The notes under the pieces are model-generated. The model made no database searches and had not been told where the DNA came from. It worked only from the letters and a program-made list of their open reading frames with translations. Positions 2,242-49,159 of a stretch of DNA of 64,000 bases are shown here, in pieces. The translations under genes and the position numbers were made by a program. The DNA is from Acetofilamentum sp. (GTDB taxonomy: Bacteria; Hydrothermota; 32-111), in NCBI GenBank assembly GCA_020721805.1, contig DYMB01000004.1, forward strand, positions 43,616 to 107,615. The letters run 5' to 3'. How positions within the stretch are numbered: the first letter of the stretch is position 1; every line of letters starts with the position of its first letter.

Positions 2242-2886
2242 ATGAAAGAAAATGTGAGACTTTCTGTAGATTGTCTGGTTAATGGGGAACTCGATACCAA
2301 TACTTATTTCATAAAGGATACATCGAAAAATACCCTGATCGTTGATCCGGCAGATGGTGAAGAGATTATTCGTTATATAGAGAAAGAAGAACTGATACCC
2401 AGAATGATAGTCAATACACATGGACATTATGACCATATATCAGGTAATTTAACACTTAAAAACAGATACGATATTCCAATATGTTCCGGATTGAAAGATT
2501 TTGATTTTTTTCAGAATCCTGATTTAAATCTTTCATATTTTATAGGAAAAAATTATATTTCTCCAGAACCTGACATAACTTTTGATGAGAAAGAATCTTT
2601 TGATTTTTCTGGTGAAAAAATAAATATTATCTGGACTCCAGGTCATACACCCGGCTCAATTACTTTAATATTTGATGATATTATTGTTTCCGGGGATCTT
2701 CTTTTTAAGGATGGAGTTGGAAGGACTGATCTGATAGGTGGAGATCCTGTAAAACTGATAGGATCTTTAAAAAAGATTTTCACGAATGTTCCATCATCAC
2801 ATACAATTCTTCCAGGGCATGGGTTCTATGGTAAGGCAAAATATTTTAAAGAAATTTTAAAAGAATTTAAATTAGGGGCTGTTTAA
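2242..2886 (+). CDS. MBL-fold hydrolase, glyoxalase II-like
   Basis: A 214-residue metallo-beta-lactamase-fold protein. The metal-binding motif THGHYDH is at residues 59-65, followed by the downstream ligands His135 (PGHTPGS), Asp152 (SGDLLF) and His193 (LPGHG), the spacing of the glyoxalase II-like subgroup. It lacks the C-terminal helical domain of true glyoxalase II (about 250 residues), so the substrate is open: a thioester or another hydrolysable ester. It is first in an operon running into the beta-CASP gene (1-base overlap of stop and start) and is read from a leaderless-type promoter. Confidence 0.85.
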   Translation: MKENVRLSVDCLVNGELDTNTYFIKDTSKNTLIVDPADGEEIIRYIEKEELIPRMIVNTHGHYDHISGNLTLKNRYDIPICSGLKDFDFFQNPDLNLSYFIGKNYISPEPDITFDEKESFDFSGEKINIIWTPGHTPGSITLIFDDIIVSGDLLFKDGVGRTDLIGGDPVKLIGSLKKIFTNVPSSHTILPGHGFYGKAKYFKEILKEFKLGAV

Positions 2887-4253
2887 TGAGATTAACATTT
2901 TTTGGAGCTGCTAAAGAGGTCACTGGTTCAAAACATCTTCTTGAAACCGATGATAAAAGGTTGCTTATAGATTGTGGATTGTTTCAGGGTAAAAGAAAGG
3001 AGAGCGAATTCCAAAACTTGAATTTCCCATTTGATCCTGAATCTATCGATCTCTTAATTTTAACACATGCTCATATAGACCATTCTGGCAATATCCCGAA
3101 TTTTGTCAAGAAAGGTTATAAGAATCAGATCCTTTCAACATACGCCACGATAGATTTAGTTCAACCGATGTTGATAGATAGTGGACATATACATGAGAAG
3201 GATATCGAATATTTAAAAAAGAAAAAAAATAATCAGGATAAAGTTCCACTCTATACTGTTGAGGATGCAAAAAATTCTTTTAAGTATTTTAAAGGATTTA
3301 ACTATTATTCAGATGTGAATCTTGGCAATGGATTGACTTTGACATTTCTCGATGCGGGACATATTTTAGGTTCCTCTCAACTTTTTTTTGAATATAGGGG
3401 TAAAAAAATAGTTTTTACAGGGGATCTGGGAAGAAAACATTTACCCATAGTTAGAACCCCGGATACGGTTAAAAATGTAGATGTTTTGATAATAGAGTCC
3501 ACTTATGGCGACAGAGTTCACAAAGATATCAGACTGAGTAGAGAAGAATTGAAAAAAGTTCTCGAAAGTGTAAAAGGTAAAGGTGGGAACCTCATCGTTC
3601 CAGCTTTTTCAGTTGGAAGATCACAGGAGTTGATTTTTGATCTTTTTATACTTAAAAATGAAGGTTACGATCTGGGTATGAATATATATGTTGATTCTCC
3701 ATTAACAATAAATGTCACAAAAATTTTTAAAGAACACCCTGAATGTTATGATGAAGAGATGATGGGACTCTTCAATCAATTTAAAGATCCTTTCAATTTT
3801 AAAGGTTTATATTATATAGAGGATGTTGAGGAGTCTAAAAAACTTAACAGTATGAAGGAATCAAAGATAATTATTTCGGCAAGTGGTATGTGTGAATCTG
3901 GAAGAATATTACATCATTTAAAAAACAATGTTGAAAATCCAAACAATACTATTCTAATAACTGGGTTTATGGCGGCAAATACTTTAGGCAGAAAGATAGT
4001 TGAAGGTGAAAAAAAATTAAAAATTTTTGATGAAGAATACGAATTGAATGCAGAAGTTAAAATAATGAATGAATACTCAGCACATGCTGATAGAAATGAT
4101 CTATTAAGTTACATCCAAAAGAGTCGCCCAAAGAAGATTTTTCTTGTTCATGGTGAAGAAGAGCAGATTTTTAAATTTAAGGAATTACTTAACTCGTCAG
4201 GTTTTAAGAATGTGATCGTCCCCTCCAAAGGAGAATCTTTTGAAATTCTTTGA
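2886..4253 (+). CDS. MBL-fold beta-CASP exonuclease-like protein
   Basis: A 455-residue protein with HAHIDHSG at residues 61-68 (zinc ligands His61, His63, Asp65, His66), the FTGDLGR motif, the beta-CASP insert containing DSPLTINVT and SASGMCESGRI, and the C-terminal YSAHADR and FLVHGE motifs of the RMMBL domain. This is the architecture of the YSH1/CPSF-type RNA-processing nucleases found in many bacteria. The expected role is endo- or 5'-exonucleolytic RNA cleavage; the natural substrate of the bacterial members is poorly known. It overlaps the downstream recombinase gene by 14 bases. Confidence 0.9.
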   Translation: MRLTFFGAAKEVTGSKHLLETDDKRLLIDCGLFQGKRKESEFQNLNFPFDPESIDLLILTHAHIDHSGNIPNFVKKGYKNQILSTYATIDLVQPMLIDSGHIHEKDIEYLKKKKNNQDKVPLYTVEDAKNSFKYFKGFNYYSDVNLGNGLTLTFLDAGHILGSSQLFFEYRGKKIVFTGDLGRKHLPIVRTPDTVKNVDVLIIESTYGDRVHKDIRLSREELKKVLESVKGKGGNLIVPAFSVGRSQELIFDLFILKNEGYDLGMNIYVDSPLTINVTKIFKEHPECYDEEMMGLFNQFKDPFNFKGLYYIEDVEESKKLNSMKESKIIISASGMCESGRILHHLKNNVENPNNTILITGFMAANTLGRKIVEGEKKLKIFDEEYELNAEVKIMNEYSAHADRNDLLSYIQKSRPKKIFLVHGEEEQIFKFKELLNSSGFKNVIVPSKGESFEIL

Positions 4254-5133
4254 TGAAGAACTCTTAAAAAATTACAAAAATTATCTTGTGACAGAAAAGG
4301 GATGTTCCGATTTAACTGTAGATTCATATATGAGGGATATATTTCAATATTTGTCATATGTTGAAAAGTATGATCTTGATAAAGTTTTAGTTGATAAAAC
4401 CGTTTTAGAATCTTTTATAGCGGAACTCTCAAAACTAGGTTTAAACAGCAGTTCTATAGCAAGGAAGTTGACTTCTATAAAGAATTTTTATACTTTTCTA
4501 TTTTATGAAAAAAAAATAGAACACGATCCTTCCGAAAATATAATTCCACCAAAACTTTCTAAAAGATTACCTGAAGTTCTTACTTATGAAGAGATAAGAA
4601 AAATTATTAATTCTATTGATGAAAAAAGCCCATACGATTTAAGGGATAAAGCATTGATTGAAGTTATGTATGGCTCAGGCTTAAGAGTTTCCGAGGTTAT
4701 CAATTTAACTATCGAAAATCTTTACAGGGAGGAAGGGTATATTAAGGTTACAGGTAAAAGGATGAAACAGAGAATAGTCCCACTAAATGAAATAGCATTC
4801 GAGTCTATTTTTAGTTATATACATTATGGAAGAAAACATTTTGAAAAGACCAAAAACAATTACCTTTTTCTAAACAAAAGTGGCAATCAACTATCGAGAA
4901 TGGCAGTATGGAACATTTTAAACAAAAGGGTAAAAAATTTAAAAATTCTTAAAAATGTTCATCCACATATTTTAAGGCATTCCTTTGCAACACATCTTCT
5001 TGAAGGTGGTGCCGATCTCAGAAGTGTTCAGGAAATGCTTGGACATTCGAGTATCGTTACAACAGAGATTTACACGCATGTTGATAGAAAAAAATTAATC
5101 ACAATCTATGATACATACCATCCACGTCGTTAA
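4240..5133 (+). CDS. xerD: Tyrosine recombinase XerC/XerD
   Basis: A 297-residue phage-integrase family protein of typical Xer length with an N-terminal SAM-like DNA-binding domain (residues 1-90) and a C-terminal catalytic domain. All six catalytic positions are visible: Arg149 (GSGLRVSE), Lys173, His243 and Arg246 (HILRH), His269 (LGHSS) and the nucleophile Tyr278 (IYTHV). It should resolve chromosome dimers at a dif site during division. XerC and XerD cannot be separated by eye. The start is TTG at 4240, supported by AAAGGAG six to seven bases upstream within the end of the preceding gene; no in-frame ATG is nearby. Confidence 0.9.
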   Translation: MKFFDEELLKNYKNYLVTEKGCSDLTVDSYMRDIFQYLSYVEKYDLDKVLVDKTVLESFIAELSKLGLNSSSIARKLTSIKNFYTFLFYEKKIEHDPSENIIPPKLSKRLPEVLTYEEIRKIINSIDEKSPYDLRDKALIEVMYGSGLRVSEVINLTIENLYREEGYIKVTGKRMKQRIVPLNEIAFESIFSYIHYGRKHFEKTKNNYLFLNKSGNQLSRMAVWNILNKRVKNLKILKNVHPHILRHSFATHLLEGGADLRSVQEMLGHSSIVTTEIYTHVDRKKLITIYDTYHPRR

Positions 5134-5144
5134 AAGGGGGGATA

Positions 5145-8100
5145 ATGTTTTTTAGAAAAAAGAATGAATCTGAAAAAGATGAAAAGGAAACAAGAGAGGA
5201 CAAGCAGAAGATTGTTTTGAAGAAAAAGAAAAAAATAGTTGTTTCAAAAACTAACAAGAAGAATATAGTTGATGAAAAAAAAGATAATATGGATGAGGAA
5301 ATAGTTTCCGATCTCTCAAATATGCTTGAAACTTTTAATAGTTTAGATGATTCCACCGAAAAGAAGGAAACTGAGGAAAAGGACATTGAAAATGAAACAA
5401 AAGAAATAAGAGATGAAAATGTTGAAACTATGGATGATCTACTTGATGTCTTCGATAGGATTGAAAACATAGAAGAAAAGAAAAGTGAAGTTCAAATAGA
5501 GAAAGAAGAACAAAAAGAAAATAAAGAGATTTTTGAGCGATCCGTTGAAAGTGTAGAACAAAAAGAAAAATCAAAGAAAGAGTCTATAAAAAAAGAGGAG
5601 AAAAAGGATCAAATTTTTGAAAGGGAGAAAGAATTTTTTGCCCAGGAATCATCAAAAAAGGATGTTTTAGAAAATATTTCGAGTATCTCACAGGATAAAA
5701 TTACAGAAGTTGAATTGGAAAAATCAGAATCACACAATGAACAAGGTAAAATCCCGGAAGAAGAGAAAAATCTTGAGATTGTCGGTTTTGATGAAAAGAA
5801 AGATGAACCAGAAGTAAAAAAGGATTTAGAAGCAAAATCTGAAATTCAGAAAGAAGAGTTATCCAAAGAAAATATAGAATCTTTTGAAAATGTTGAAAAA
5901 GAGATATTGAGTAAAAATGAAGAGTTGAATAGGTTGGTTTCAACTCTGATGGAAAAATCAATAGAAGAAAAGGAACTCAGCAATAAGATTGAAGAGAATT
6001 CAAAAAAATTGAAATTTATGACAGAAGATATTGAAAAGAGCAAAAATAAAATTGAGATTTTAAAAAAAGAGTATGAAAGAGTAAAAAAAGAGAACGACGA
6101 AAATATTATTTCATTGAATAAAAACCTTGAATCTTTAAATGAAAGATTATCAGAACTTCAGAAAGACATAAAAGAAAAAGAAAAAGAAAAATCAAAAATT
6201 ACCGATGAGATAAACAGATTGAATGAGAATAGAAAGGAACTTATCAAAAGTTTTGATGAGATAAAAAATCGTTATGATATAGAAGAGAAAAACATAGCCG
6301 ACTTAAAAAAGGATAGTGAAAAGTATAAAAATGAAATTAAAATGTTAGAACTTGAAATAGAAGAAAAGCAAAACTCCCTTAAAGGGCTGAACGATGAACT
6401 TTTAAGTTTGAAAGATGAACAGAAAAGTAAAATTACACAGATATCCGAACTTGAAAAGAAATACAATTCTATAAAAAAACTTTTAGAAGATGACGAAAAC
6501 GATTTAAAATTACTCGAACAAAAGATCAATGATAAGAAAAAATATCTTGAAAAGATCGAGAGCGGTGTGGGGATGAATTTAAGTGATGAACTTGAATTGA
6601 CCGAGAAAAAAAATGAGTTGCAGAGTCTTATAGAACAATATGAAAAAGAAAAAGAAAAATTGAAAAATGAAAATAAGAAAATCAATGAGAATCTAAAAGA
6701 ACTTGAAAATCAGGAAACATCTTTAAAATTGAAAATGAAAAATGTTGATGATCGGATAACTGAAAAAAATCAACAGTTAAAAAAACTGGAAATGGAATAC
6801 GATGTGTTGAATGAAAAAATCACAGAAAAAGAAAAGGAAATAAAATCAAAGGAAAATTATTTTAACGAACTGTCATCTTTGATTAAAAATGATGAGAAAA
6901 AAAGGGGGGAACTTGAAAAGGATATAAAAAATAGTAATAAAGAATTACAGATTCTTATCAATTCAATAAAAAAAGAAGAGATTAAACTTGATGAATTGAT
7001 GAAAGAATATTCCGGATTTTCAGATAGATATCGTGAAATAAGAAACGAAATGACAGATTTTGAAAAAGAAAAAAATAATCTGGCACAACAGATAGATATA
7101 TTAAAAAATGATAAGGAAGACCTTGAAGGTTATGTTGAAGAATTAAAAAAGGAAAAGGTTTCTCTTGAAGAAAAACTTTCAGAAGATAAAAAAGAACTTG
7201 GAAGGTTGAAAGCAAACGCTGAGGTTATACTTGAAAATTTCAACGGTAAAGAAAAAGAACGAAAACAACTTGTAGAATATATTGAGAAAAAACAAAAGGA
7301 AAAAAATGATCTTGAAAACGAAATAGATGAGAAAAAGGATCGGATAAAAGAACTTGAACAAAAAATATCTGAAATAGAAAATGAGGTTAATAACAGGGAC
7401 AGAACACTTATATCAAAAGAAGAAGAGTTGAAAAATCGGCTTGAAGATGAAAAGGAAAAAATTCAAAAACTGGATGATGAAATCCAACAAAAAATTCAAA
7501 GACAAGAGGAACTTGAAAACCAGATTAAAAATTTAACCGATAAGAAGGATTCTCTTGAGAACGATTTCCAGAAAAGGATAAAGGAAACCTCCTCAGTAAT
7601 CGAAGAGCTTGAAAATGATAAAAATAGAATTAACGAGGAAATAATAGTTCTTAACAATGAATTTTTATCGCTGAAAAATGATAAAGAGGAAATATCCAAT
7701 TGGATAACACAAAAAGAAAATGAAACAAAGGATATAGAAAAGAGGTTAAAATCTAAAAACCTTAAAATTGAAGAGTTACAGAATAATTTAAGAATGTTAG
7801 AGGTTGATCTGGAAGATATTCAGTTACAGAAAGAATCTCAACTCGTAGAGATAGAAAAATTAAAGAAGGAAGAGATAAGGTTGAATACAAGTATTGAAGA
7901 AAAAAAGGTTGAATTCAAGGAACTTCAGGAAAAGATTCAACAGATTGAAACGGATTTCCCTAATATAAGAGAATATAAACCTGTTCAGGGTGATACTCCA
8001 CAGATAATAGAAACAAAGTTGAGTTTAAATCAGTTGTTAAAAATAAAGAATAAACTCGATGAAATTATTCTTCTCAGAAAGAATCAGGAAAGGAAACTGG

Positions 8101-8972
8101 CAGCCGTTCTTGGGATGGAAAAGATAGAGAATATCAAAAAGAATATAGAATTGGAACTTTCAGAGAAAGAAAATATACTTTTAAATTTAAGGAAGGAAAT
8201 TTTAACTTTTAATGAGGAACTCAATGTAAAGAAAAATGAAATTCAAAAGATCACTGAGACAAAGCAATCACTTCAACAGGAATATGTTGATCAACAGGTA
8301 AAACTTGAAAATTTAAAGAAAGAGTTTAACGAAACCACGCAGAAGATAGTGAAGATAGCAAATATAGAGAAACAAATGCAGAGACAGTATGAGAAAATAA
8401 AAAATGAAATAACCAGATCAAACAGCATTCAACAGAAGTTACAGAATGAAATAGAGAGTGCTAATGCTGAGAAAGAAAAAATATTTTTAGAGAAGGAAAA
8501 AGTTTTAACGGAATTACAAACTTACAAAAAAGAGTTTGAACAGATAAAGGAAAAAGTTGAAAAAACAAAAGATGATATCCATAAAATAAGTGACTTTTCA
8601 GCTGAAGAAATGGTGAAAAAGGATAAAGAGATAGGTGATCTTAAAAATCAAATTGAGATACTTGTAAGGGAAAATAACAGATTAAAGTATAACCTGAATC
8701 AAAGTAAAAATTTAACTAAACAAAATGGAGAAAGACCCAAAGAGAAAGAATCCAAAACTGTTGAAAAAATAGGTATGGAAAAAGAAAACCTACAATTTAT
8801 AAAAAAGGAAGAAAAAGTAAAGGAACATATTGAACCAAAGCCCACGCGGGAAGTTTTCGAAGAGGATGAGGTTTCTCTTGAAAAATGGTTTGAAGAAAAA
8901 AATAGAGAAAGAATAGAAGAGAAAAAAGAAGAAAAAAGAGAAGAGACCTTTGGTGATATATTTTTTGGATGA
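5145..8972 (+). CDS. Giant coiled-coil protein, 1275 residues
   Basis: Extremely rich in Lys and Glu. Residues 1-250 are charged and likely disordered. Residues about 255-1220 are near-continuous heptad-type coiled coil, broken around residues 945-965 by a proline-containing segment (FPNIREYKPVQGDTPQ) and a conserved-looking patch with LLRKNQERKLAAVLGMEKI. A short acidic/basic tail ends in ETFGDIFFG. No Walker A or ABC-signature motif is present, so this is not an SMC ATPase; no signal peptide or membrane span is seen, so it is cytoplasmic. A strong SD (AAAGGGGGG) precedes the ATG. It overlaps the cytidylyltransferase-like gene by four bases (ATGA). A filament, scaffold or polarity role is conceivable but unproven. 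Confidence 0.85.
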   Translation: MFFRKKNESEKDEKETREDKQKIVLKKKKKIVVSKTNKKNIVDEKKDNMDEEIVSDLSNMLETFNSLDDSTEKKETEEKDIENETKEIRDENVETMDDLLDVFDRIENIEEKKSEVQIEKEEQKENKEIFERSVESVEQKEKSKKESIKKEEKKDQIFEREKEFFAQESSKKDVLENISSISQDKITEVELEKSESHNEQGKIPEEEKNLEIVGFDEKKDEPEVKKDLEAKSEIQKEELSKENIESFENVEKEILSKNEELNRLVSTLMEKSIEEKELSNKIEENSKKLKFMTEDIEKSKNKIEILKKEYERVKKENDENIISLNKNLESLNERLSELQKDIKEKEKEKSKITDEINRLNENRKELIKSFDEIKNRYDIEEKNIADLKKDSEKYKNEIKMLELEIEEKQNSLKGLNDELLSLKDEQKSKITQISELEKKYNSIKKLLEDDENDLKLLEQKINDKKKYLEKIESGVGMNLSDELELTEKKNELQSLIEQYEKEKEKLKNENKKINENLKELENQETSLKLKMKNVDDRITEKNQQLKKLEMEYDVLNEKITEKEKEIKSKENYFNELSSLIKNDEKKRGELEKDIKNSNKELQILINSIKKEEIKLDELMKEYSGFSDRYREIRNEMTDFEKEKNNLAQQIDILKNDKEDLEGYVEELKKEKVSLEEKLSEDKKELGRLKANAEVILENFNGKEKERKQLVEYIEKKQKEKNDLENEIDEKKDRIKELEQKISEIENEVNNRDRTLISKEEELKNRLEDEKEKIQKLDDEIQQKIQRQEELENQIKNLTDKKDSLENDFQKRIKETSSVIEELENDKNRINEEIIVLNNEFLSLKNDKEEISNWITQKENETKDIEKRLKSKNLKIEELQNNLRMLEVDLEDIQLQKESQLVEIEKLKKEEIRLNTSIEEKKVEFKELQEKIQQIETDFPNIREYKPVQGDTPQIIETKLSLNQLLKIKNKLDEIILLRKNQERKLAAVLGMEKIENIKKNIELELSEKENILLNLRKEILTFNEELNVKKNEIQKITETKQSLQQEYVDQQVKLENLKKEFNETTQKIVKIANIEKQMQRQYEKIKNEITRSNSIQQKLQNEIESANAEKEKIFLEKEKVLTELQTYKKEFEQIKEKVEKTKDDIHKISDFSAEEMVKKDKEIGDLKNQIEILVRENNRLKYNLNQSKNLTKQNGERPKEKESKTVEKIGMEKENLQFIKKEEKVKEHIEPKPTREVFEEDEVSLEKWFEEKNRERIEEKKEEKREETFGDIFFG

Positions 8973-9589
8973 AAATGATATACGCTATAATACCAGCACG
9001 TAGTGAGAGTAAGAGAGTTAAAAATAAAAATTTTTTAAATTTAAAAAATGATACTTTACTTTCAAAAACATTAGAGGTTGCTCTTAATCTTAATTTTATT
9101 GATAAAATAATCGTTTCTTCGGATAAGAGGTTGAACTTTAAATACAAGGAAAAAGTTATATTCAATAAAAGACCAAAAAGTTTATCAAATGATACTACTA
9201 CAACGGATCGTGTGTTATCCTATCTTATTAACAAATACAAAATAAAAAAAGAGGATGTTATAATTTTACTTCAACCAACATCTCCTTTGCGGGAACCTGT
9301 AAATATAAAGGAATCTTTTGATCTTTTTTTTAAAAAAAGAGAACCTGTTTATTCAGTTGAAATGGTTCAAAATAATGATAGATATTTTATAATGGAGCAT
9401 GATAAAGTGAAGAGTTTACCTTTTAAAATTTTTTTAAAACAGAATGGTGCCATATACATTTTTAAAGTTGTGGATTTCTTAAAGAATAAAAAGATTCCTA
9501 ATGATTTTTATCCTTATGTTATGGAAAAGATCAGATCTATTGACATAGACGACTATTTGGATTATATAACTCTTCTAAATATTTATTAA
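8969..9589 (+). CDS. Acylneuraminate cytidylyltransferase-like protein (NeuA family)
   Basis: A 206-residue nucleotidyltransferase. The N-terminal IPARSESKRVKNKN (about residues 8-21) is the CTP-binding loop of the CMP-NeuAc synthetase family and LLQPTSPLRE is its second signature. Family members activate nonulosonic acids (sialic, legionaminic, pseudaminic) or other sugar acids with CTP. A NeuB-family synthase lies 10 kb downstream on the other strand, which supports a nonulosonate role. It overlaps the coiled-coil gene by ATGA, and the next gene follows after an AAAGGAGG site. Confidence 0.82.
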   Translation: MKMIYAIIPARSESKRVKNKNFLNLKNDTLLSKTLEVALNLNFIDKIIVSSDKRLNFKYKEKVIFNKRPKSLSNDTTTTDRVLSYLINKYKIKKEDVIILLQPTSPLREPVNIKESFDLFFKKREPVYSVEMVQNNDRYFIMEHDKVKSLPFKIFLKQNGAIYIFKVVDFLKNKKIPNDFYPYVMEKIRSIDIDDYLDYITLLNIY

Positions 9590-17541: not shown

Positions 17542-19339
17542 AAGAGTCTTTTTTTTCATTTTACTTGATATTTTACTCTTCTTTTTATCGTTTCTTTTTT
17601 CCTTTGGAATAAGATTTGGTATAGGTGAGATAGTAAAAAATTTTCATATTTATGAAATTTTCCTTTTTCTCTTTCTTCCTGTAAAAATATTTTTATTTTC
17701 CCTGTCTGATATCTATTCTTTAAATTGGAAATATTTTTCATTGAAGGATGCTTTAAAAATAATTTTTATCTTAACCTTTGCTCTAATCTTTTTATTTTTC
17801 ATTTTCCTTATTTTGTTAAAAAATAGGATAATATCTTTTTTGCCTCGTTCAGTCTTTTTACTTGATTATTTTTTCTCTCTGTGGTTTATTCTATTTCTTA
17901 GAATTTTTAAAAGGGTTTTTCTCATCATTAAAAATAGTTTTGCGCTCAGCGATAAAAAGTCAATAATAATTTATGGAGCCGGTGATGCTGGAGAGAAAAT
18001 TATAAGAAGTATGTTCTCTTCTGAAAGCAAATATTCACCGGTTGCTATAATCGATGATGATCCCATAAAAAAAGGAACAAAAATTCATGGTATAAAAGTC
18101 TTTGGTGGTATAGAAGTTTTAAAGAAATTAAAAAATGAATTTAACTGTGATTCCATCCTTATCGCTATTCCTTCTATAGATAAAGATAGTTTAAAAAAAA
18201 TCTATGATTTTGTTCAAAAGATAGGTTTCAGAGAAATAAAGATATTACCCTCAATGGAAAAGATCATCGATGGGGAAGTAACTCAACACAATATCAAGAA
18301 TGTTGATATCACTGACCTTCTTGGGAGAGAAAAAGTTAAAGTGAATATAGAACTCATCACAGGATACTTAAAGGATGAAAACATTCTTGTAACCGGTGCT
18401 GCGGGATCGATAGGAAGTGAAATTGTCCATCAGTTGATCAGGTTTCAGCCTGGGAAAATTTATGCCCTTGATATAAATGAAACTGAACTTTTTTATCTTA
18501 AAGAAAGAATTAAGAGAAAATTTTCAAAAGATATTGAAATAATTTTATCCGATATCAGGGATTTTGAATCTATTAAAAAAATTATTGATGAGAGGAAGAT
18601 AAGCGTAATTTTTCATGCGGCTGCTTTAAAACATGTTCCAATATGCGAAGAGTTCCCATTAGAAGCTGTAAAAACTAATATATTTGGAACCTACAATCTG
18701 CTAAAATCTTCAAAAGGAAAGGTTAAAAGGTTTTTATACATATCTACCGATAAGGCTGTTAATCCTGTTTCTATAATGGGTGCATCCAAAAGAATAGGAG
18801 AGATCCTTGTTAATTCACAGAGCGATCCTTACACAAAATTTTTTGTGGTAAGGTTCGGAAATGTTCTTGGCTCAAGGGGTAGTGTGATACCAATTTTTGA
18901 AGAACAGTTGAAAAATGGCGGACCAATAACCGTTACCGATGAAAATATGGCAAGATATTTTATGACAATATCAGAAGCTGTAATTTTATCTATTGAAGCG
19001 GCGGGATCTGGTAAAGGTGGTGAAACCTTTATGCTGGATATGGGCAAACCGGTAAAGATTAAGGATGTGGCTGAAAATATAATAAGAATGTATGGATACC
19101 AACCCAACAGGGATATAAAAATTGTTTATACCGGTATAAGAAAAGGAGAAAAACTTTTCGAAGAGTTATTCACTCAAAAAGATATTGTCGAAAAAACTGA
19201 ATTTGACAAAATTTTCAAAATAAAAAATAGCAAAGAATTTAGCGAAGAAGAAATAGAAAAAATGTTAAAAGATTTCAACGATGAGAATAGAATAATTGAT
19301 ACATTTAAGTTTTATTTGAAAGAATTCAAACATGAATAA
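17495..19339 (+). CDS. Membrane nucleotide-sugar 4,6-dehydratase (WbpM/FlaA1/CapD family)
   Basis: A 614-residue protein with four to five N-terminal membrane spans (residues 15-145), a first Rossmann-like domain (IIYGAGDAGEKI near 157) and a catalytic SDR domain from about residue 297 (VTGAAGSIGSE). The catalytic tyrosine is replaced by methionine (STDKAVNPVSIMGASKR near 418), which is normal for the WbpM/PglF/FlaA1 dehydratases. These convert UDP-GlcNAc to the 4-keto-6-deoxy sugar and initiate many surface-glycan pathways. The start chosen overlaps the aminotransferase by 47 bases; AAGGAAC eight bases upstream supports it, and no other in-frame ATG occurs before residue 160. Confidence 0.88.
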   Translation: MLVKILKNFFQPTYYKRVFFFILLDILLFFLSFLFSFGIRFGIGEIVKNFHIYEIFLFLFLPVKIFLFSLSDIYSLNWKYFSLKDALKIIFILTFALIFLFFIFLILLKNRIISFLPRSVFLLDYFFSLWFILFLRIFKRVFLIIKNSFALSDKKSIIIYGAGDAGEKIIRSMFSSESKYSPVAIIDDDPIKKGTKIHGIKVFGGIEVLKKLKNEFNCDSILIAIPSIDKDSLKKIYDFVQKIGFREIKILPSMEKIIDGEVTQHNIKNVDITDLLGREKVKVNIELITGYLKDENILVTGAAGSIGSEIVHQLIRFQPGKIYALDINETELFYLKERIKRKFSKDIEIILSDIRDFESIKKIIDERKISVIFHAAALKHVPICEEFPLEAVKTNIFGTYNLLKSSKGKVKRFLYISTDKAVNPVSIMGASKRIGEILVNSQSDPYTKFFVVRFGNVLGSRGSVIPIFEEQLKNGGPITVTDENMARYFMTISEAVILSIEAAGSGKGGETFMLDMGKPVKIKDVAENIIRMYGYQPNRDIKIVYTGIRKGEKLFEELFTQKDIVEKTEFDKIFKIKNSKEFSEEEIEKMLKDFNDENRIIDTFKFYLKEFKHE

Positions 19340-19910
19340 AAGTTTAGACATCCTTGGTTTATCCGCCCTTTATCATGATTCTTCAATCACTTATATAAAG
19401 AATGGTAAACCTCGCTTCTCCGTTCAGGAGGAGAGGTTCTCTAAAAAAAAATTTGATCAAAATTTTCCATCCTTTTCTTTGGAAACTTTGAAAAAAAATT
19501 TTGATTTTAAACCAGAAGATTTAACCGCTGTTGTTTTTTATGATAAACCAATTTTAAAATTTGAAAGGATAGTGGAAAATCTGATCTACTCTTCACCAAA
19601 GAATTTCAATTTTGCATACTCCTCTCTTTCCCTGTGGCTTAAAAATAAAATGTTCATTGAATCACAGATCAGAAAAATGATAAAAGGAAATTATAAAATT
19701 TTTTATGTTCCACACCATATATCTCATAATATTATACCAACAGATCGAAAAATCTTTAAAGGAACTTAAAACGATTTATCAGAAAACGGATAATCCAACA
19801 TCGCATCAAAAGAAATAAGTAAAAGAAGAGTCGTGGGATGGTTTCAGGGTAGAATGGAGGTTGGACCGAGAGCACCTGGTAATATAAGCATTCTGGGTGA
19901 TACAATTTGA
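19332..19910 (+). pseudogene. Carbamoyltransferase (NodU/CmcH family) remnant
   Basis: Residues 1-130 of the first frame are a clear NodU/CmcH N terminus: ILGLSALYHDSSITY, then SVQEERFSKKKFDQNFPS, then a late HHISHN. The frame stops at 19767. After about 60 bases with frame slips, a second piece at 19797-19910 encodes VVGWFQGRMEVGPRA, the C-terminal active-site motif of the same family. An intact enzyme has about 550-600 residues, so some 400 residues of the middle are deleted. It overlaps the dehydratase by eight bases and would have ended the sugar operon by O-carbamoylating a sugar. The remnant cannot be active. Confidence 0.88.
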
Positions 19911-27909: not shown

Positions 27910-28407
27910 TTGGGTTATGAAAATCTGAGCATCTTTGAACAAGATTTCTGGGATATAAATAACACATTGAATAAACTTTTAACTGCAACAAATTCAACGG
28001 CACTTTTACTTGTTGATAAAGCAGGACAACTGATCACTTCGGTTGGAAATATTTCGAATCTTGACCTTGTATCCTTTGGTTCTCTTGCAGCCGCTGATTT
28101 TGCTGCAACAAGCCAACTTGCATTACTTGTAGGAGAGGATGAATTTACAGAGTTGTTTCATCAGGGGAAGCAGGAGAATATTTATATAACGGTAATCCTT
28201 TCAAGGATAATCCTTGTGGTAATTTTTGGAAAGACTACAAATCTTGGACTGATAAGGATAAAAATAAAGACTACGGTTAGTGAACTTGAACAAATTTTCA
28301 ATAACATTTTTAAAAAACTTAACGCTGGTGATAAAAAGATGAAAGAGACATTTGATGATGACTTTAGAAAGGCAGCGGAGAATGAACTTGATGATCTGTT
28401 CAAGTAA
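27910..28407 (+). CDS. Roadblock/LC7-domain protein (MglB-like)
   Basis: A 165-residue protein with an N-terminal helix, a roadblock fold (TNSTALLLVDKAGQLITSVG, then AAADFAATSQLA, then FHQGKQENIYITVIL) and a charged C-terminal tail. MglB-type roadblock proteins are GTPase-activating partners of MglA GTPases and set cell polarity in Myxococcus and Thermus; a GTPase follows directly. The start is TTG at 27910, four bases after AGGAGG; no in-frame ATG is near. Confidence 0.82.
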   Translation: MGYENLSIFEQDFWDINNTLNKLLTATNSTALLLVDKAGQLITSVGNISNLDLVSFGSLAAADFAATSQLALLVGEDEFTELFHQGKQENIYITVILSRIILVVIFGKTTNLGLIRIKIKTTVSELEQIFNNIFKKLNAGDKKMKETFDDDFRKAAENELDDLFK

Positions 28408-28422
28408 AAATTGGAGGAAAGA

Positions 28423-28998
28423 TTGTCGGTTATAAACTATTCATCAAGAGAGATCACATTCAAAATAGTCTACTATGGAACTGGTCTTGGAGGGAAAACA
28501 ACAAATTTAAAAATGATATATAATAAAATAAGTCCAGAAACAAGAGGTAAGATGATATCTCTTGCAACCGAAATGGATAGAACATTATTTTTTGATTTTT
28601 TACCGATGGACATAGGTTCGGTCAAAGGTTTTAAAACAAAATTTCAACTATATACTGTCCCTGGTCAGATATATTATAATGCCTCAAGGAAATTGATTTT
28701 AAAAGGTGTTGATGGTATAGTATTCGTTGCGGATTCTCAAATTGAAAGATTTGAAGATAATATAGAGAGTGTTGATAACCTTCTTGAAAATTTAGCAGAA
28801 CATAATCTTAAAATTGAAGATATACCTTTCGTGATGCAATACAATAAAAGAGATCTTCCAAACATATCATCGATAGAGGATCTTCAGAATGCCATCAACC
28901 CATGGAATGTCCCTTATTTTGAAGCGGTTGCAACTCAAGGGATAGGTGTTTTTGAAACTCTCAAATCCGTTTCAAAGATGATCCTTCAAAGATTATGA
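28423..28998 (+). CDS. mglA: MglA-like small Ras-type GTPase
   Basis: A 191-residue GTPase. The P-loop is [13 protein letters not shown] near residue 15; [15 protein letters not shown] is the switch II region with the MglA-type TVPGQ motif, and MQYNKRDL is the NKxD element. MglA controls motility and polarity. The start is taken as TTG at 28423 because GGAGG lies five bases before it; a TTG at 28411 would put the SD inside the gene. The 3' end overlaps the chemoreceptor gene by six bases. Confidence 0.9.
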
Positions 28999-30675
28999 TG
29001 TTTTCTTAAACCTTTCAACTATATCTTTTAATTTACCAGCGGTCGTATAAAGATGCTGTGTGCTTGATGCAAGTTCTTCTATTGAGGCACCCTCCTGTTC
29101 AACAGCTGAAGTTATCTCTTCACTTGCGGATGCGTTGTTTTCGGAAATTTTTAAAATTTCATTTATTGTTTTACTGAAAAGTTCCATCGATTCCTTTACA
29201 GTTTTTATCTGGTTGGTTGCATTCTTGTTGTTTTCGTTGATGTTTTCAATATTGTTACTTATTTCTTCAAGCGTTTCGAATGTTTTTGTTAGTGCATTTT
29301 TCCCATCGACTATGATCTCCTCATTTGACTTACTCTTTTCTATAAGTATTTTTATTGCCTCATTAATTTCTTCTATTATCTCATGGATGGATATTGCTGA
29401 TTCCTGAGATTTTTCAGCCAATTTTCTTATCTCTTCAGCAACGACCTGAAAACCTTTTCCGTACTCTCCAGCCCTTGCCGCTTCTATTGATGCATTCAAA
29501 GAAAGTATATTTGTTCTGTTTGTTATCGCTTTTATCGTTTCAGTTATTAAGGATATTTTTTCCTGTTTTTCTGTTATATCTTTAATAGTTTTATAAAGTT
29601 CATTTGATGAACTCAAAATCATTTCTGATGCCCGGGAAGAATTCTCTGATATCTCTTTTCCTTTTTTAGCCATCAGGTTTATTTTAGTTGAAAATTCCTC
29701 ATTCTTTTTTATCATTTCGAATGAAGAGACAATTATATTTTTTGTTTCTTTGGTTCCCTTATAAACCTCTTCCATCTTTTTAGCCTGTTCATAAGAGTTA
29801 TGAGAAATTTCCTGAATACTGGATGTTATTTCCTCTGAAGATGCTGTTAATTCTTCCGATGAGGAGGAAAGAAGTTCTATATGTTCTGTAATCAGTTTGG
29901 TGGCATCGGTCAGTTCATTTCTAATTGTATAGAGAAGTTCAAAAATTTTGTTGAATTCAAGTATTAGACCTATATATTCTCTGTAAGGTATAGTCATATC
30001 TTTAGGTTTTAAATCACTTTTACCCTCATTTATCATTTTTAGCTCTTTGGTAATTAAAATTATAGGATTTACAATTCTTTTATAGAGGTGAAAGATTATA
30101 AAAAGAAGAATGATAGATACTAAGCCTACAATTAAAAGACTTTTTAATGAATTTGAAAGCATAATCTTAAAAAAAGATTTTCTTGAAATAGAAAGGATAA
30201 ATCCACCAAGAAATCTTTTCTCTCCACCATAGTCTGATGTTATCGCATAGTAATAATTATCGGTACTGTTCTTTGGTTGAAATTCTTCAATAACCTTTTC
30301 TTCACTCAAAGATTTTTCAATAAACTTTCTTTCATACTCAATAGGTATATCATCTTTCGCTTTAATATAACTTCTAACCGTATATGATGAGTCAACATAT
30401 AAAGCATAGTAGAAATTATCTATATTTTTAAAATTGTTCAAAATATAGTTTAACTCATCTATATGTTCGGTATCGGATACTTCAAGAAAATGGGAGGAGA
30501 ATGCTGAAATCATCTTTACAATATTTTGAAAATATTTTTCATTCTCCCTGTTTCTGTTCAAAATATTTTGTGCTTCAATGGAAAATCTTGTGATAAAAGC
30601 TATAGCAAAAAAATATGGTATTATCCAGAATATCATAATGGTTAAGAGACTTTTTCTTTTATCCTTTTTTTTCAT
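28993..30675 (-). CDS. Methyl-accepting chemotaxis protein
   Basis: A 560-residue receptor. Membrane span 1 is near residues 12-32, followed by a periplasmic sensor of about 140 residues, span 2 near 172-195 and a HAMP-like linker. The long signalling coiled coil carries the conserved hairpin tip [20 protein letters not shown] near residue 390. Glu/Gln/Ser-rich stretches ([31 protein letters not shown]) are candidate methylation regions. No che genes lie in the window. It is last in the nadB-hpf-hprK-PTS operon and overlaps the EIIB gene by 17 bases, so it may sense a signal tied to that PTS. Confidence 0.93.
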
Positions 30676-31141
30676 CTTTACTCCTTTTCAACAAAATATT
30701 TTTTATATCATATGATTCTGTTGAAGGTATCTGCTGAGCGTTTATTTGTCTAAAATCAAATTTTGAAATTGTTTCAAGAAATATATTCACATCATCCTTA
30801 TCCATATAGATAAAATCTAAAAATTTTTCTTTATCTTCTCTGTTTCTTAATCCACCAAGGTTAAAAATATCAAACTTGATTTTTTTTAAACCTTGAAAAA
30901 AAAATTTTAAAATTTTTAAATTTTCAACTATGTAAATTGAAAAATCCTTATCCGGAATATCATCTTTTGGATCTATTATATATAGTTTGATATCTGGAGA
31001 CATCATATTTTTATAAATTTCAACCATCTCTTCTGGAAGGTTGTAATTCAAAAGTATTAAATTTGAAATGTTATAAAAAGGTATTAAACCGGAAATTATC
31101 TGACCATGTATCAATCTATCATCAACTCTTAAAATTTTCAT
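30659..31141 (-). CDS. PTS mannose-family EIIB component
   Basis: A 160-residue protein starting with [14 protein letters not shown]; His13 in that motif is the phosphorylation site of the mannose-family EIIB domain. [15 protein letters not shown] and [11 protein letters not shown] follow the family pattern. No EIIC or EIID membrane subunits are encoded nearby, so a regulatory rather than transport role is suggested. It overlaps the EIIA gene by four bases. Confidence 0.88.
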
Positions 31142-31518
31142 CTTATACCTCTTTTACCTACTTCGATAAGTTTCCTGTAAAGTTTCTCACCGTTAAGTTT
31201 GGTTCGATGGATAAAAAAATCTATTATCATTGGTAGATTGTATCCAAAAAGGATAAAAATTGAATTTGAACTATTCTGTATTAGTTTTATTATAGGTAGT
31301 GATACGGATGAACCATAAAAGTCTATGAAGATGAAAAATTCTTTGTTATTTTTACCATTCTCTTTTAAAGATTTTTCTAAAAGTTTATAGATATCATCAT
31401 TTGAAAGATCGGTGTTGGTAATTATAGTATAATTTTCCTGTTTTCCTATTATGGTTTCACAAGTGTTTACAATTTCAAAAGGTAGATTCGCATGACCTGT
31501 GAAGATTCCATGTATCAT
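31138..31518 (-). CDS. PTS mannose-family EIIA component
   Basis: A 126-residue protein. GIFTGHANLPFEIV aligns with the THG phosphorylation site of EIIA-Man (His9), and ILFGYNLPMIIDF with the conserved GVNLPM. It would take phosphate from HPr and pass it to the adjacent EIIB. It lies between hprK and EIIB with four-base overlaps on both sides. No HPr or enzyme I gene is in the window. Confidence 0.85.
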   Translation of the reverse strand: MIHGIFTGHANLPFEIVNTCETIIGKQENYTIITNTDLSNDDIYKLLEKSLKENGKNNKEFFIFIDFYGSSVSLPIIKLIQNSSNSIFILFGYNLPMIIDFFIHRTKLNGEKLYRKLIEVGKRGIR

Positions 31519-32513
31519 TCTTCATCCTCTTCAAGTCTTGCAAGTTTTTTTGCTTTTTCCTGCATCAATTTTATAAGAGTGGCATTGAAAACTTTACTTG
31601 TATCATAACCGATTATCTTCAAAAGGTGGTTTAAAGCAACCACTTCTGCGATAACAGAGATATTCTTTCCGGGTAACAGTGGAATCTTAACCAGCGGGAT
31701 TTCGACTTCGAGAATGTTTGACACCTCCTCTTTTAAACCGACTCTTTCAATATCGGTATCAGGTTTCCATTCTACAAGATTTATCTCTATTTCAATCCTT
31801 TTATGTAATCTTACCCCTCTTATGCCAAAAATCTTTGCTATATCGAGTATCCCAACCCCTCTTACTTCCATATGGTATTGTAAAGAGGAATCTGGAGCGA
31901 TCCCTGTTCCCATAAGTATGTGTTCACCTTTTTTGTATATTTTTATAACATCGTCAGCAACGAGTCTATGTCCTCTATCTACAAGATCCAATGCACATTC
32001 ACTTTTACCTATTCCACTTTTACCTGTGAGCATAACGCCTACACCATATATATCAACAAGCGTTCCATGTCTGGTAATTGATGGGGCGAGTTTATTTGTC
32101 AAATATATTGAGAGTCTGTTTGTAATGGTGAAAACAGATTTGGGAGAAACTATAACTGGCATATTGTATCTGTTTGAAAACATTTTAATTATTTTTGGAA
32201 CCTGATTCTGTGTTGAAATGAAAAGAGCAGAATATCCTTTATCAAAAATTGAAGAGAGGAAAATTTTTCTCTTTTTATAACTTAGCCCAGATAGAAATTT
32301 TAACTCATGATCATCTGCAATAAGTACCGAATTTTTTAAAAGATGATCAGTATAACCTACAAAAGCCAGACCACACTTGATAACCTCTTTATTCTTTATA
32401 TGATTTCCAAGGCCATTCTTACCCGATAAGATTGTTAAAGATAATTCTTCTCTGTTTTCGTTAACAATTTCTTCAACGGTTACGAAAGAGTTTATAGATG
32501 ATTCATCTGTCAT
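31515..32513 (-). CDS. hprK: HPr kinase/phosphorylase
   Basis: A 332-residue protein with the N-terminal HprK domain and a C-terminal kinase core: Walker A GKSGIGKSECALDLVDRGH near residue 155, then LVADD and the signature MEVRGVGILDI. It phosphorylates Ser46 of HPr and reverses the reaction. The ATG at 32513 is preferred because GAGGAG lies seven bases upstream; an earlier in-frame start is five codons away. It overlaps hpf by 11 bases. HprK placed directly before EIIA/EIIB of mannose type is a known arrangement in several diderm phyla. Confidence 0.94.
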   Translation of the reverse strand: MTDESSINSFVTVEEIVNENREELSLTILSGKNGLGNHIKNKEVIKCGLAFVGYTDHLLKNSVLIADDHELKFLSGLSYKKRKIFLSSIFDKGYSALFISTQNQVPKIIKMFSNRYNMPVIVSPKSVFTITNRLSIYLTNKLAPSITRHGTLVDIYGVGVMLTGKSGIGKSECALDLVDRGHRLVADDVIKIYKKGEHILMGTGIAPDSSLQYHMEVRGVGILDIAKIFGIRGVRLHKRIEIEINLVEWKPDTDIERVGLKEEVSNILEVEIPLVKIPLLPGKNISVIAEVVALNHLLKIIGYDTSKVFNATLIKLMQEKAKKLARLEEDEE

Positions 32514-32790
32514 GTTTCTTCTCCTCAAATTTTTTCAATTGAGTCTTCATTTTATCTATTACATGATCTATCGATGTCATAAGTTCATAAGATTCATCGG
32601 AGGATGTAAACCTGTGTTTTTTCACATCGACTTCAAGTTCAACCTTATATCTTTTTCCATTCAATTCAATGGTGAAATTTGCATCAAAAATATTATGTTC
32701 AAATTTTTCCAGCACCTTTAATGAGTCTTCAATAAAAGTTTTTATTTCTGGAGAAATCTCTAAGTGTCTTCCGGTAATTTTGATGTTCAT
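32503..32790 (-). CDS. hpf: Ribosome hibernation-promoting factor, short form
   Basis: A 95-residue protein: MNIKITGRHLEISPEIKTFI, later DANFTIELNGKRYKVELEV and a charged tail. The length matches the short HPF/YfiA type without the C-terminal dimerisation domain. It binds the ribosomal A/P sites in stationary phase. SD AAAGGAGG precedes the ATG. It overlaps nadB by four bases and hprK by 11. Confidence 0.92.
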   Translation of the reverse strand: MNIKITGRHLEISPEIKTFIEDSLKVLEKFEHNIFDANFTIELNGKRYKVELEVDVKKHRFTSSDESYELMTSIDHVIDKMKTQLKKFEEKKHDR

Positions 32791-34359: not shown

Positions 34360-35679
34360 TTAATTTCTATAGAATTGTATAATATTTGTATCAAAAATAT
34401 AGTTCCGCCAGTTTTGCGGAATATCCTCTTCTAAAACGTTTGTGTATATCAACTCGTATTTCCCGAAACCTTTAACATCAACGAATATGAACTGCATACC
34501 ACCCCTTGAATAGTAAATCCATGAATCGTAATTTTTACTTTCCTTGCTCATAGGTATAAGCAAAGTTTCATCTGGAGGACCATACTTAAGATAGATTTTT
34601 CCCCTTGCGGATCTGTAGCCTTCTTCACCACCCGATGAAAATTTCTCATTTACATATTTAACCTTTTTAATAAAATCGTCAAGTGCTTCAAGTTTTTGAT
34701 TGGTTTTATCCGGATCCCTTCTTTCCCAGAAATCAATTAAAAAATTATGTCTGGCTCTTTTTTCTTTCAAAGATTTGAATTGTGATAATTCAGATGTGGT
34801 TGCTATGTAATCTATAAGAGAATAATATTTCAACTGTTCATCCGAAAGGTTATATTTAACCTGCTGGGATTTAAACATTGTTGAACTTTTAAAAAAGTTT
34901 ATAGATTTTTTTAAAATGTTGGTATCAGAGTATATCAGATTGACATCAACTCTATATTTACCATCTTTAAATCCAAGGGTGTTAAAATAATTTATTACAA
35001 CAAAATCAAAAGCTGGGGAGAATCTTTTCTGACCTGAAATTGTTGAAACAAGAGAATCTTTTTCATCGAAAATCTTATATTCTATCCTGTACTCTTTATT
35101 ATGTAAATTGTATATTTCAAAAAAAAGATAAATTAAGGGATTGATCAAATTATAATTTTTCGATGGATTGGGAATCACAACATATCCGTTTCTTGAAAAT
35201 TTGTCTTCGATGGAGTCTTTTCTAACAGTATAACCAACTATGATATCAGACAAAAACGGATTCAGACTATCCATTTTTGAAAGTTCAACGGTATCAACCC
35301 TGCTATATTCTTTTTGGGAGAACGAATCTATTATAAGACTTTTAAATTCATATTTTGCAGGGGAGAGTAAGAATGATGCTCTATCAAGTAAAAACATATC
35401 TTCATTTAAGATCTGATTCTTTGTTATATAGGATATTGAATTCCACTCATCATATACCTCTTGAGAATTCTCAAGATTTTTAACAAAAACTTTAATATGC
35501 AATATACCCTTATTATTGTCATCCAACTCTTTGTAGGTGATATTTTTTGAATAGAACTGAATATCATAGAAAATTTGATATATATTTTTCTGAGATTTAA
35601 ATGCTGTTATGGAAAGATCATATTGTGGAAAAATCAAAATTGACACGAAAAATAAAATAATAGTAAAAAATTTTTTCAT
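34360..35679 (-). CDS. GWxTD-domain exported protein (second of pair)
   Basis: A 439-residue protein with an N-terminal signal peptide (KKFFTIILFFVSILIFPQY). The C-terminal 120 residues match the GWxTD domain: FWERRDPD, GGEEGYRSARGKIYLKYGPP, SWIYYSRGGMQFIFVDVKGF. The name-giving GWxTD has decayed to GYRSA here. The middle is beta-rich. The domain is known from Bacteroidota, Gemmatimonadota and related candidate phyla and has no established function. It is paired with a homologue upstream (three-base gap). Confidence 0.8.
   Translation of the reverse strand: MKKFFTIILFFVSILIFPQYDLSITAFKSQKNIYQIFYDIQFYSKNITYKELDDNNKGILHIKVFVKNLENSQEVYDEWNSISYITKNQILNEDMFLLDRASFLLSPAKYEFKSLIIDSFSQKEYSRVDTVELSKMDSLNPFLSDIIVGYTVRKDSIEDKFSRNGYVVIPNPSKNYNLINPLIYLFFEIYNLHNKEYRIEYKIFDEKDSLVSTISGQKRFSPAFDFVVINYFNTLGFKDGKYRVDVNLIYSDTNILKKSINFFKSSTMFKSQQVKYNLSDEQLKYYSLIDYIATTSELSQFKSLKEKRARHNFLIDFWERRDPDKTNQKLEALDDFIKKVKYVNEKFSSGGEEGYRSARGKIYLKYGPPDETLLIPMSKESKNYDSWIYYSRGGMQFIFVDVKGFGKYELIYTNVLEEDIPQNWRNYIFDTNIIQFYRN
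34366..34394 (-). promoter_or_regulatory. Promoter of nadB operon inside the end of the GWxTD gene (leaderless type)
   Basis: Minus strand TTGATA (34394-34389), 17-base spacer, TATAGA (34371-34366), seven bases to the ATG at 34358, no SD. The whole promoter lies within the last 12 codons of the upstream gene, whose stop codon ends two bases before the nadB ATG. Confidence 0.6.
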
Positions 35680-35682
35680 AGA

Positions 35683-36846
35683 TTATCTCATCTGTTCAAG
35701 ATAATTTTGTAAAACATATTCTCCATAACCATTTATATCGATAAAAACAAAATTGAGATTTTTACCATAATAATACCAGATTTCATAAGGTTTACTATCC
35801 TTATCAAAAGGATGCTTTTCTATTTCATCAGGTTGACCATAGATTATATAAATTCTTCCAAAATCTGTTTTATACCCCTTCTTGAAACCTGAGAAATTTT
35901 TATTCGCATAATTGTATCTTTCAAAAAATTCATTATAACCTATTCCCATAGTTATGGATGGATTTGATAACTGTTTTAACCAGAAATTGTTCCACTCTTT
36001 CTCTCTATTTTCTTTTGAAACATTTTTCAATTTATCCAATTCATCCCATTTTGCGATATAAGATAGAGCGTTTATCATATCCTGGTATTCGATTTCAGAT
36101 TTTAAAAAAGAAAATTTGATCAAAACTTCAGTTGTTAAAAAATTTATAATTTTGTTATCTTCTATGTATTCGACTCTCAAGAGATATTTGCCTCCGTACA
36201 GATCCTTTACAAAAAATAAGGTATCGGTTTGTTTTGTTAAATTTGTTTTTTGTTTGTAAACGACCCTGTTCTTTGGATCCATAAGTATAATGTTAAAATG
36301 CCCCCTTTTTTCATTTTTCAAACTCATAATCGTTTCGAATTGAACCGTATCGGTGGAAGAGAAAAAATTATCTTTGTCGTTTATCAATTTTAATGAACTT
36401 AAAAAATTTCCATTCTGGGGAACGGATGGTATTTTAATATCTATGGTAAATTTTTTTGATCTACCGTTAAGTATATCATAGATATCAAAAAATATTTTTT
36501 TTGTTTCCGCAGGGATTTTTAAATTTGTCAGATTAAAACTAACATTCATAGTTTCAAGATCCTGTGGAATGGTGGTAAAATTAAAAATCGTATCGAAGGT
36601 TAGCGTGTGTATTGGTAAATCCTTTTCTTTAAGAAATGTGAACCTCAGTGAAGTCTTTGCTATGTATCCTGAAGAATCTTTCTCAAAAATCAATTCTTTC
36701 AAAAAAAGATTGATCTTAAAATTTATAACAGGCTGGTAAGTTGAATCTATAATTAAATTTGAAGTGAATGATAGTTCATCGAAATCTGCCTGTAAAAATA
36801 TAATAGAAAAGAAAAAGAACAAAAAAGAAAAAATTTTAAATTTCAT
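35683..36846 (-). CDS. GWxTD-domain exported protein (first of pair)
   Basis: A 387-residue protein with a signal peptide (residues 1-21, ending LQADFDE). The C-terminal GWxTD region has NNFWLKQLSNPS, then FKKGYKTDFGRIYIIYGQPD and EIWYYYGKNLNFVFIDINGY. The tryptophan is replaced by tyrosine (GYKTD). It overlaps asd by 11 bases, so it is probably the last-but-one gene of the lysine operon. It shares the overall layout with the following gene, suggesting an old tandem duplication. Confidence 0.82.
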   Translation of the reverse strand: MKFKIFSFLFFFFSIIFLQADFDELSFTSNLIIDSTYQPVINFKINLFLKELIFEKDSSGYIAKTSLRFTFLKEKDLPIHTLTFDTIFNFTTIPQDLETMNVSFNLTNLKIPAETKKIFFDIYDILNGRSKKFTIDIKIPSVPQNGNFLSSLKLINDKDNFFSSTDTVQFETIMSLKNEKRGHFNIILMDPKNRVVYKQKTNLTKQTDTLFFVKDLYGGKYLLRVEYIEDNKIINFLTTEVLIKFSFLKSEIEYQDMINALSYIAKWDELDKLKNVSKENREKEWNNFWLKQLSNPSITMGIGYNEFFERYNYANKNFSGFKKGYKTDFGRIYIIYGQPDEIEKHPFDKDSKPYEIWYYYGKNLNFVFIDINGYGEYVLQNYLEQMR

Positions 36847-48958: not shown

Positions 48959-49153
48959 ATGCCAGGTGTTAAATTAAGAGATGGTGAATCTTTTGATGGT
49001 GCTTTAAAAAGATTTAAAAGATTATGTGAAAGGGCTGGTATTTTAAGTGAAATAAAACAGCATCAATTTTATGAAAAACCCAGCGAAATCAAAAAAAGGA
49101 AAAAGATAGAGGCAAGAAGAAAAAGTCTTCGTTCCAGTAAAATAAAGGATTAA
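48959..49153 (+). CDS. rpsU: 30S ribosomal protein bS21
   Basis: A 64-residue basic protein: [20 protein letters not shown] near residue 4, [18 protein letters not shown], then a Lys/Arg-rich tail. Length and motifs are typical of bS21, which helps the 30S subunit initiate on leadered mRNAs. It heads an operon with cvpA and mutS2 and has its own strong promoter and SD. Confidence 0.96.
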
Positions 49154-49159
49154 ACGAAG

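Follow-up and report, generated by a model that had tools for sequence, protein, structure and literature searches.

What does a bacterium do with a very long coiled coil encoded directly behind an Xer-type recombinase gene? The question is raised by a 64,000-nucleotide stretch of Acetofilamentum sp. (contig DYMB01000004.1; hereafter the window), whose genome (G000; 1.70 Mb, 99.8% complete) belongs to the WOR-3 bacteria, a name that NCBI taxonomy leads to the phylum Caldifarciminota. A named relative, candidate division WOR-3 bacterium UBA6260 (contig DJVI01000009.1), shows 70% identity across the part that was searched. An earlier note had described a 1275-residue coiled-coil protein there, lying between xer and a sugar cluster. 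We found that the open reading frame (ORF), its ATG start and its heptad periodicity are as described, with an Xer-type integrase upstream and, in Pfam, a cytidylyltransferase followed by a UDP-sugar dehydrogenase downstream. The ORF is a genuine gene, because relatives at 30-52% identity in four other genomes lift its signal beyond chance. As to its role, we give about an even chance to a cytoplasmic spacer or scaffold of one WOR-3 class. The protein is a genuine class-restricted new family of an already known kind of protein.

Orthologs were found in the window's own family of this class (f1; G000 to G004, own genome included), which we compared with the second family (f2; G005 to G008). A full-protein search matched 5 of 40 relatives, own genome included, and these are the five f1 genomes. 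Identity to the window protein was 52% in G001, 37% in G003 and 30-45% over pieces in G002 and G004, where the coiled-coil genes are split over contigs. A profile built on the conserved node (A1; its six rows come from the five f1 genomes) matched, at E 0.001, these five and no others of 147 WOR-3 genomes. In G000, G001 and G003 a single contig carries xer, the coiled coil, the cytidylyltransferase and the UDP-sugar dehydrogenase in this order, which in G002 and G004 is divided into halves on separate contigs. In f1, 11-12 nt separate xer from the coiled coil (8 or 11 nt in G001, depending on which of two adjacent ATGs is taken as the start), and a G-rich stretch occupies the position of the ribosome-binding site in all five genomes.

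The rod of this protein is kept in length while its sequence diverges. Across three full-length f1 proteins, whose rods are 34-52% identical, about 833 rod residues align without insertions or deletions (indels), and the G002 rod has one deletion, of exactly two heptads (14 residues). Landmarks within the rod gave the same picture: ESG or EQG precedes NAE by 216 residues in all five proteins, and NAE precedes DFPNI by 249 in G000, G001 and G003 and by 235, two heptads fewer, in G002; the G004 gene is broken between contigs within the latter interval. The head and tail vary freely, with 19-35 gap runs per alignment row. Identity to the four orthologs was 23-39% in the head, 28-52% in the rod at residues 258-880, 47-76% in the node at 881-1090, 18-36% at 1091-1175 and 25-45% in the tail. 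The extreme tips are conserved, as all five proteins begin MFF[KR]K and end DI[LMF]FG. Across the nine genomes of the class the tail pattern has ten matches, of which five are the coiled-coil genes and five fall at the ends of frames 10-31 codons long; above 31 codons, only the coiled-coil genes end in it. The hallmark of a length-conserved spacer, constant rod length with diverging sequence, was found in f1 only. Coiled coils with conserved length and divergent sequence are described as molecular spacers in passages of PMC5082667, and the mode of conservation seen here, with fast sequence drift, fixed length and fixed tips, suits such a spacer.

The heptad periodicity of the protein was analysed in windows of 84 residues with a step of 42. 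Hydrophobic power at period 3.5 exceeded the 95% point of 200 shuffles in every window between 253-336 and 841-924 (15 of 15) and between 967-1050 and 1093-1176 (4 of 4), and the best hydrophobic period for residues 258-935 was 3.505. Three head windows (43-126, 85-168 and 127-210) likewise exceeded that level; neither of the two windows spanning the break did so (925-1008, and 883-966, which tied with it at two decimals). The rod therefore runs over about 258-936 and 961-1175, some 890 residues in two pieces, where the earlier note had read about 950 uninterrupted heptad residues; the proline-bearing break that it reported is there, at 937-960, and its prolines (939, 946 and 952) are the only ones between residues 223 and 1197. 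The ends that it called short and distinctive do have conserved tips, with "short" being inexact for a head of 257 residues and a tail of about 100. After its basic leader the head is acidic (pI 4.4 for residues 41-250) and carries two short acid-hydrophobic motifs. Their pattern, made post hoc so that its P values were not counted as evidence, occurs 2-5 times in f1 members and 0-1 times in f2 members, with no match in G006. Single-sequence AlphaFold2 models placed helices at 701-937, 961-1149 and 1154-1192 around a low-confidence loop (residues 700-1200; mean predicted local distance difference test 74.5), and at 51-181 and 223-329 in residues 1-330, much of 1-41 and 186-221 being of low confidence.

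The protein has a long heptad rod between a non-coil head and tail and no enzymatic domain, which is the plan of bacterial coiled-coil-rich or intermediate-filament-like proteins. In line with the earlier note, which saw no ATPase, membrane or DNA-binding motifs, a Pfam search returned no family at E 0.01, ATPase and DNA-binding families included, and the highest 19-residue Kyte-Doolittle mean was 0.53, leaving no membrane-like stretch. The protein has no cysteine. Five coil-type matches were obtained in a PDB sequence search (best E 0.0025), and NCBIfam gave only coil-type matches of SMC/Rad50 type below cut-off. SMC and Rad50 models thus do match the coils, which resemble SMC/Rad50 arms in heptad composition and similar length constancy. 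However, that the protein is a degenerate SMC/Rad50-type protein is extremely improbable: its best SMC match reached 126.4 bits against a cut-off of 567.35, the matched stretches lie within the coils, Pfam shows no ATPase head and no hinge domain was found, the genome has its own full-length SMC elsewhere (G000:C69), and SMC profiles score 61-82 against f1, below a reversed f2 control (95). Neither Pfam nor NCBIfam matched a reductase or flagellar family, the other homologies that the note had singled out.

In the second family, a search with an SMC profile brought up one coil-rich frame each in G005 (913 codons) and G007 (937 codons), just downstream of the best Xer matches of these genomes. 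The order beta-CASP hydrolase, xer, coiled coil was found in three of the four f2 genomes (G005, G006 and G007). Their coiled-coil proteins (905, 890 and 929 residues) start 1 nt past the xer stop in all three, begin MFK..KKKK and end ILF; only in f1 is the coiled coil followed by the sugar genes, and Xer identity between G000 and f2 is 43-46%. A profile of the last 330 residues of the f2 proteins (A2) matched 3 of the 147 genomes at E 1e-6, none of them in f1, and the remaining 139 genomes matched neither A1 nor A2. These include G008 (77% complete), whose sole Xer match follows a gene that we take to be TrmFO-like. The coiled coil stands directly behind this xer in all eight class genomes with the locus assembled. 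Outside the class, no coiled-coil frame was seen behind xer at nine loci in eight genomes (G009 to G013, with two in G013; G016, G017 and G022), a negative that covers those nine xer copies, with just 2 kb of downstream sequence in the case of G009. Neighbours outside the window were named by eye from translated ends; domain searches in Pfam and NCBIfam covered the window proteins.

This placement raises the idea that the coiled coil partners Xer, or chromosome segregation or division, as a tether from nucleoid or terminus to divisome or pole. The gap to xer, 1 nt in three f2 genomes and at most 12 nt in f1, is consistent with it, as are the lysine-rich leader and the retention of xer, preceded by beta-CASP, as the nearest shared neighbour in f1 and f2. 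Operon linkage may, however, be mere co-expression, and Pfam gave no DNA-binding family. Furthermore, in G012 (L058 1-1958), the sole locus seen outside the class with both genes together, a beta-CASP-like gene adjoins xer without a coiled coil. Because xer stands alone there, it does not need the coiled coil, and because the two genes are adjacent without it, the beta-CASP and xer pair seems older than the coiled coil. We regard such a partner or tether as unlikely, and the coupling to xer hints, weakly, at a chromosome- or division-linked role.

Whether the f1 and f2 rods are homologous was addressed with profiles and controls. Profile-profile comparison of f1 with f2 scored 151, against 95 for reversed f2 and 61-82 for SMC controls. 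The only f1-f2 match exceeding 100 shuffles was a 12-residue head motif, DLLDVFDRIENI / DLMDLTDNLDNI, which scored 20.9; the best of the 100 heptad-block shuffles reached 19.8 and the reversed profile 14.6. Within the rod, 20- and 28-residue windows scored against a coil background matched between f1 and f2 no better than against reversed f2 or heptad-block shuffles, and an unweighted ungapped window scan gave 37.4 for f1-f2 and 40.9 for reversed f2. Shared rod modules that we had seen by eye were dropped after the reversed-profile and shuffle controls. Since profiles fail to link the rods, the coiled coil is traced across the class by place and ends only, and these suggest that the f1 and f2 proteins are likely homologous.

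Some results weigh against a spacer or scaffold. Neither profiles nor window scans link the f1 and f2 rods; the f2 rods differ by indels of 7, 7, 4 and 1; the AlphaFold2 models are weak (predicted template modelling scores of 0.27 for residues 700-1200 and 0.26 for 1-330) and silent on chain pairing; and the SMC proteins that these genomes encode vary as little in length (gaps of 1-2), so that a fixed length would suit any functional rod and does not point to one specific role.

With these points weighed, the spacer or scaffold reading can be put in mechanical terms. We infer the pairing of two chains, and their orientation, in a rod that would measure roughly 125 nm and have a single flexible joint (residues 937-960). 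This length counts about 97 heptads ahead of the break and 27-31 beyond it, at the roughly 1 nm per heptad given in passages of PMC5082667. At one end, the basic leader would attach the rod to an acidic surface, membrane or nucleoid, and the acid-hydrophobic head motifs would dock a partner. At the far end the C-terminal DI[LMF]FG peptide would dock another partner, and the conserved node would be a third likely contact. Such a protein would be like the golgin-type spacers of PMC5082667, as far as its passages go, in keeping rod length while sequence diverges and in having tips that could dock partners. Unlike golgins, it is bacterial, it has no transmembrane anchor and a link to a small GTPase is not supported by co-occurrence. 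In a bolder version, which we consider improbable, it would be a class-specific molecular ruler of about 125 nm in one operon with xer, its basic head holding Xer, the terminus or the nucleoid, its DI[LMF]FG end holding the divisome or pole and its rod length setting a distance in the cell; bacteria would then have an equivalent of the spacers of golgin or kinetochore type.

The same head-rod-tail plan, basic leader and break in the rod would also fit a protein that, in the manner of crescentin and FilP, forms a cytoskeletal filament akin to intermediate filaments, with head and tail driving assembly and the filament shaping or stiffening the cell. Excerpts of PMC10873595 and PMC7002697 show the likeness to crescentin, FilP, Scy and the cyanobacterial coiled-coil-rich proteins, which are soluble, lineage-restricted and built of a long heptad rod between a domainless head and tail, and excerpts of PMC10873595 state that crescentin assembly needs short end segments. 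Our protein has no sequence family match to any of these. In addition, its rod of about 890 residues is over twice that of crescentin (about 364 residues), and it has a true proline break where the crescentin rod has no such linkers (PMC10873595, in excerpt); polymerisation, moreover, is not predicted by a coiled-coil-rich sequence alone (PMC7002697, in excerpt). We hold a filament to be doubtful, though the likeliest of the alternatives to a spacer. Should the protein prove to be either spacer or filament, a single gene with defined tips and a naturally occurring variant two heptads shorter would allow rod length to be probed against function.

The earlier note had proposed a polarity scaffold, noting an MglA/MglB-like pair in the window. 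The pair is present, and all eight genomes with the coiled coil have MglA. However, the phylogenetic profile that the note had suggested revealed no specific link: MglA occurs in 96 of the 147 genomes and the coiled coil in 8, which leaves 88 genomes that have MglA but no coiled coil that could be detected, so their co-occurrence is uninformative. In the window 19 kb lie between the two loci; their distance is known only here and in G001, since they fall on different contigs in some genomes, and the steady neighbour is xer, not mgl. A role with MglA/MglB is therefore very unlikely, and what stands of the proposal is a soluble coiled-coil scaffold with no recognised domain, a fixed-length rod and conserved tips. 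Beside mglBA, at 28993-32528 (-), genes for a methyl-accepting chemotaxis protein-like protein, EIIB-like and EIIA-like proteins of the phosphotransferase system (both below cut-off) and HPr kinase (301.9 against 240 bits) lie in a row, which looks regulatory rather than transport-related.

Two likenesses of the tail were also considered. SSB-tip and clamp-binding motifs need Pro or Gln at a set place. The coiled-coil tail is like the SSB C-terminal tip in its acidic-hydrophobic end; eight of the nine class genomes had their SSB read to its end, and in all eight it closes with DLPF or IPF. Unlike that tip, the coiled-coil tail has no proline and in f1 a glycine follows the phenylalanine; with no Pro or Gln where needed, both the SSB-mimic and the clamp-binding reading were put aside, and the likeness to SSB is probably coincidence. 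Nor does the coiled-coil tail look like the FtsZ tails from these genomes, six of which were read to the end. Nine stretches of viral contigs matched a pattern, and none encodes a relative of the coiled coil. Our literature searches found no description of this family, nothing under the phylum name Caldifarciminota and nothing on a coiled-coil gene downstream of xerD in an operon; a search on WOR-3 and coiled coil turned up one paper, on FtsZ/tubulin evolution.

Table 1. Positions in the window of the coiled-coil gene, the parts of its product and its neighbours.
Feature	Position	Strand	Remarks
beta-CASP metallo-hydrolase	2886..4253	+	Upstream of xer in f1 and f2; orthologs recognised by eye
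Xer-type tyrosine recombinase (xer)	4240..5133	+	Constant upstream neighbour; Pfam and locus comparison
AAGGGGGGATA	5134..5144	+	Ribosome-binding site; 11 nt separating the xer stop from the coiled-coil ATG
Coiled-coil ORF	5145..8972	+	1275 aa, ATG start, stop included; ORF list and orthologs
Basic leader, residues 1-40 (MFFRKK...VLKKKKK)	5145..5264	+	pI 10.1; MFK..K at the start of 3/3 f2 proteins
Head motif 1, residues 54-69, VSDLSNMLETFNSLDD	5304..5351	+	Pattern written after sequences were inspected
Head motif 2, residues 93-108, VETMDDLLDVFDRIEN	5421..5468	+	Its 12-residue core gives the strongest match between f1 and f2
Rod part 1, residues 258-936	5916..7952	+	About 97 heptads; periodicity, no indels in three full-length f1 proteins; modelled helix from residue 701
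Landmark ESGVG, residues 472-476	6558..6572	+	216 residues ahead of K[AV]NAE in 5/5 f1 proteins
Conserved node, residues 881-1090	7785..8414	+	47-76% identity to f1 orthologs
Proline-bearing break, residues 937-960 (DFPNIREYKPVQGDTP...)	7953..8024	+	Prolines; low-confidence loop 937-960 in model
Rod part 2, residues 961-1175	8025..8669	+	Periodicity and model
Tail, residues 1176-1275	8670..8969	+	About 100 residues; alignment and periodicity
C-terminal GDIFFG	8952..8969	+	DI[LMF]FG ends 5/5 f1 proteins
Cytidylyltransferase (PF02348)	8969..9589	+	ATG 8969 overlaps coiled-coil stop; second ATG at 8975, 2 nt past that stop
MglB-like (Roadblock) and MglA-like (Ras/Arf) pair	27910..28998	+	Considered; no specific link to the coiled coil

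Several smaller observations were made in the window. Two antisense ORFs across the coiled-coil gene, at 5099-5470 (-) and 6272-6685 (-), are Ser/Phe-rich mirror frames of Lys/Glu codons and not genes. At 19332-19769 (+), a 145-residue ORF matches only positions 2-136 of the 346 of the carbamoyltransferase N-terminal family, and is a truncated or short form. The 856-residue protein at 52583-55153 (+) has no Pfam match at E 0.001 and only a weak NCBIfam match (E 0.00033). A short frame at 48960-49154 (+), read by eye, is presumably ribosomal protein bS21, and two adjacent GWxTD-domain proteins are encoded at 34363-36846 (-).

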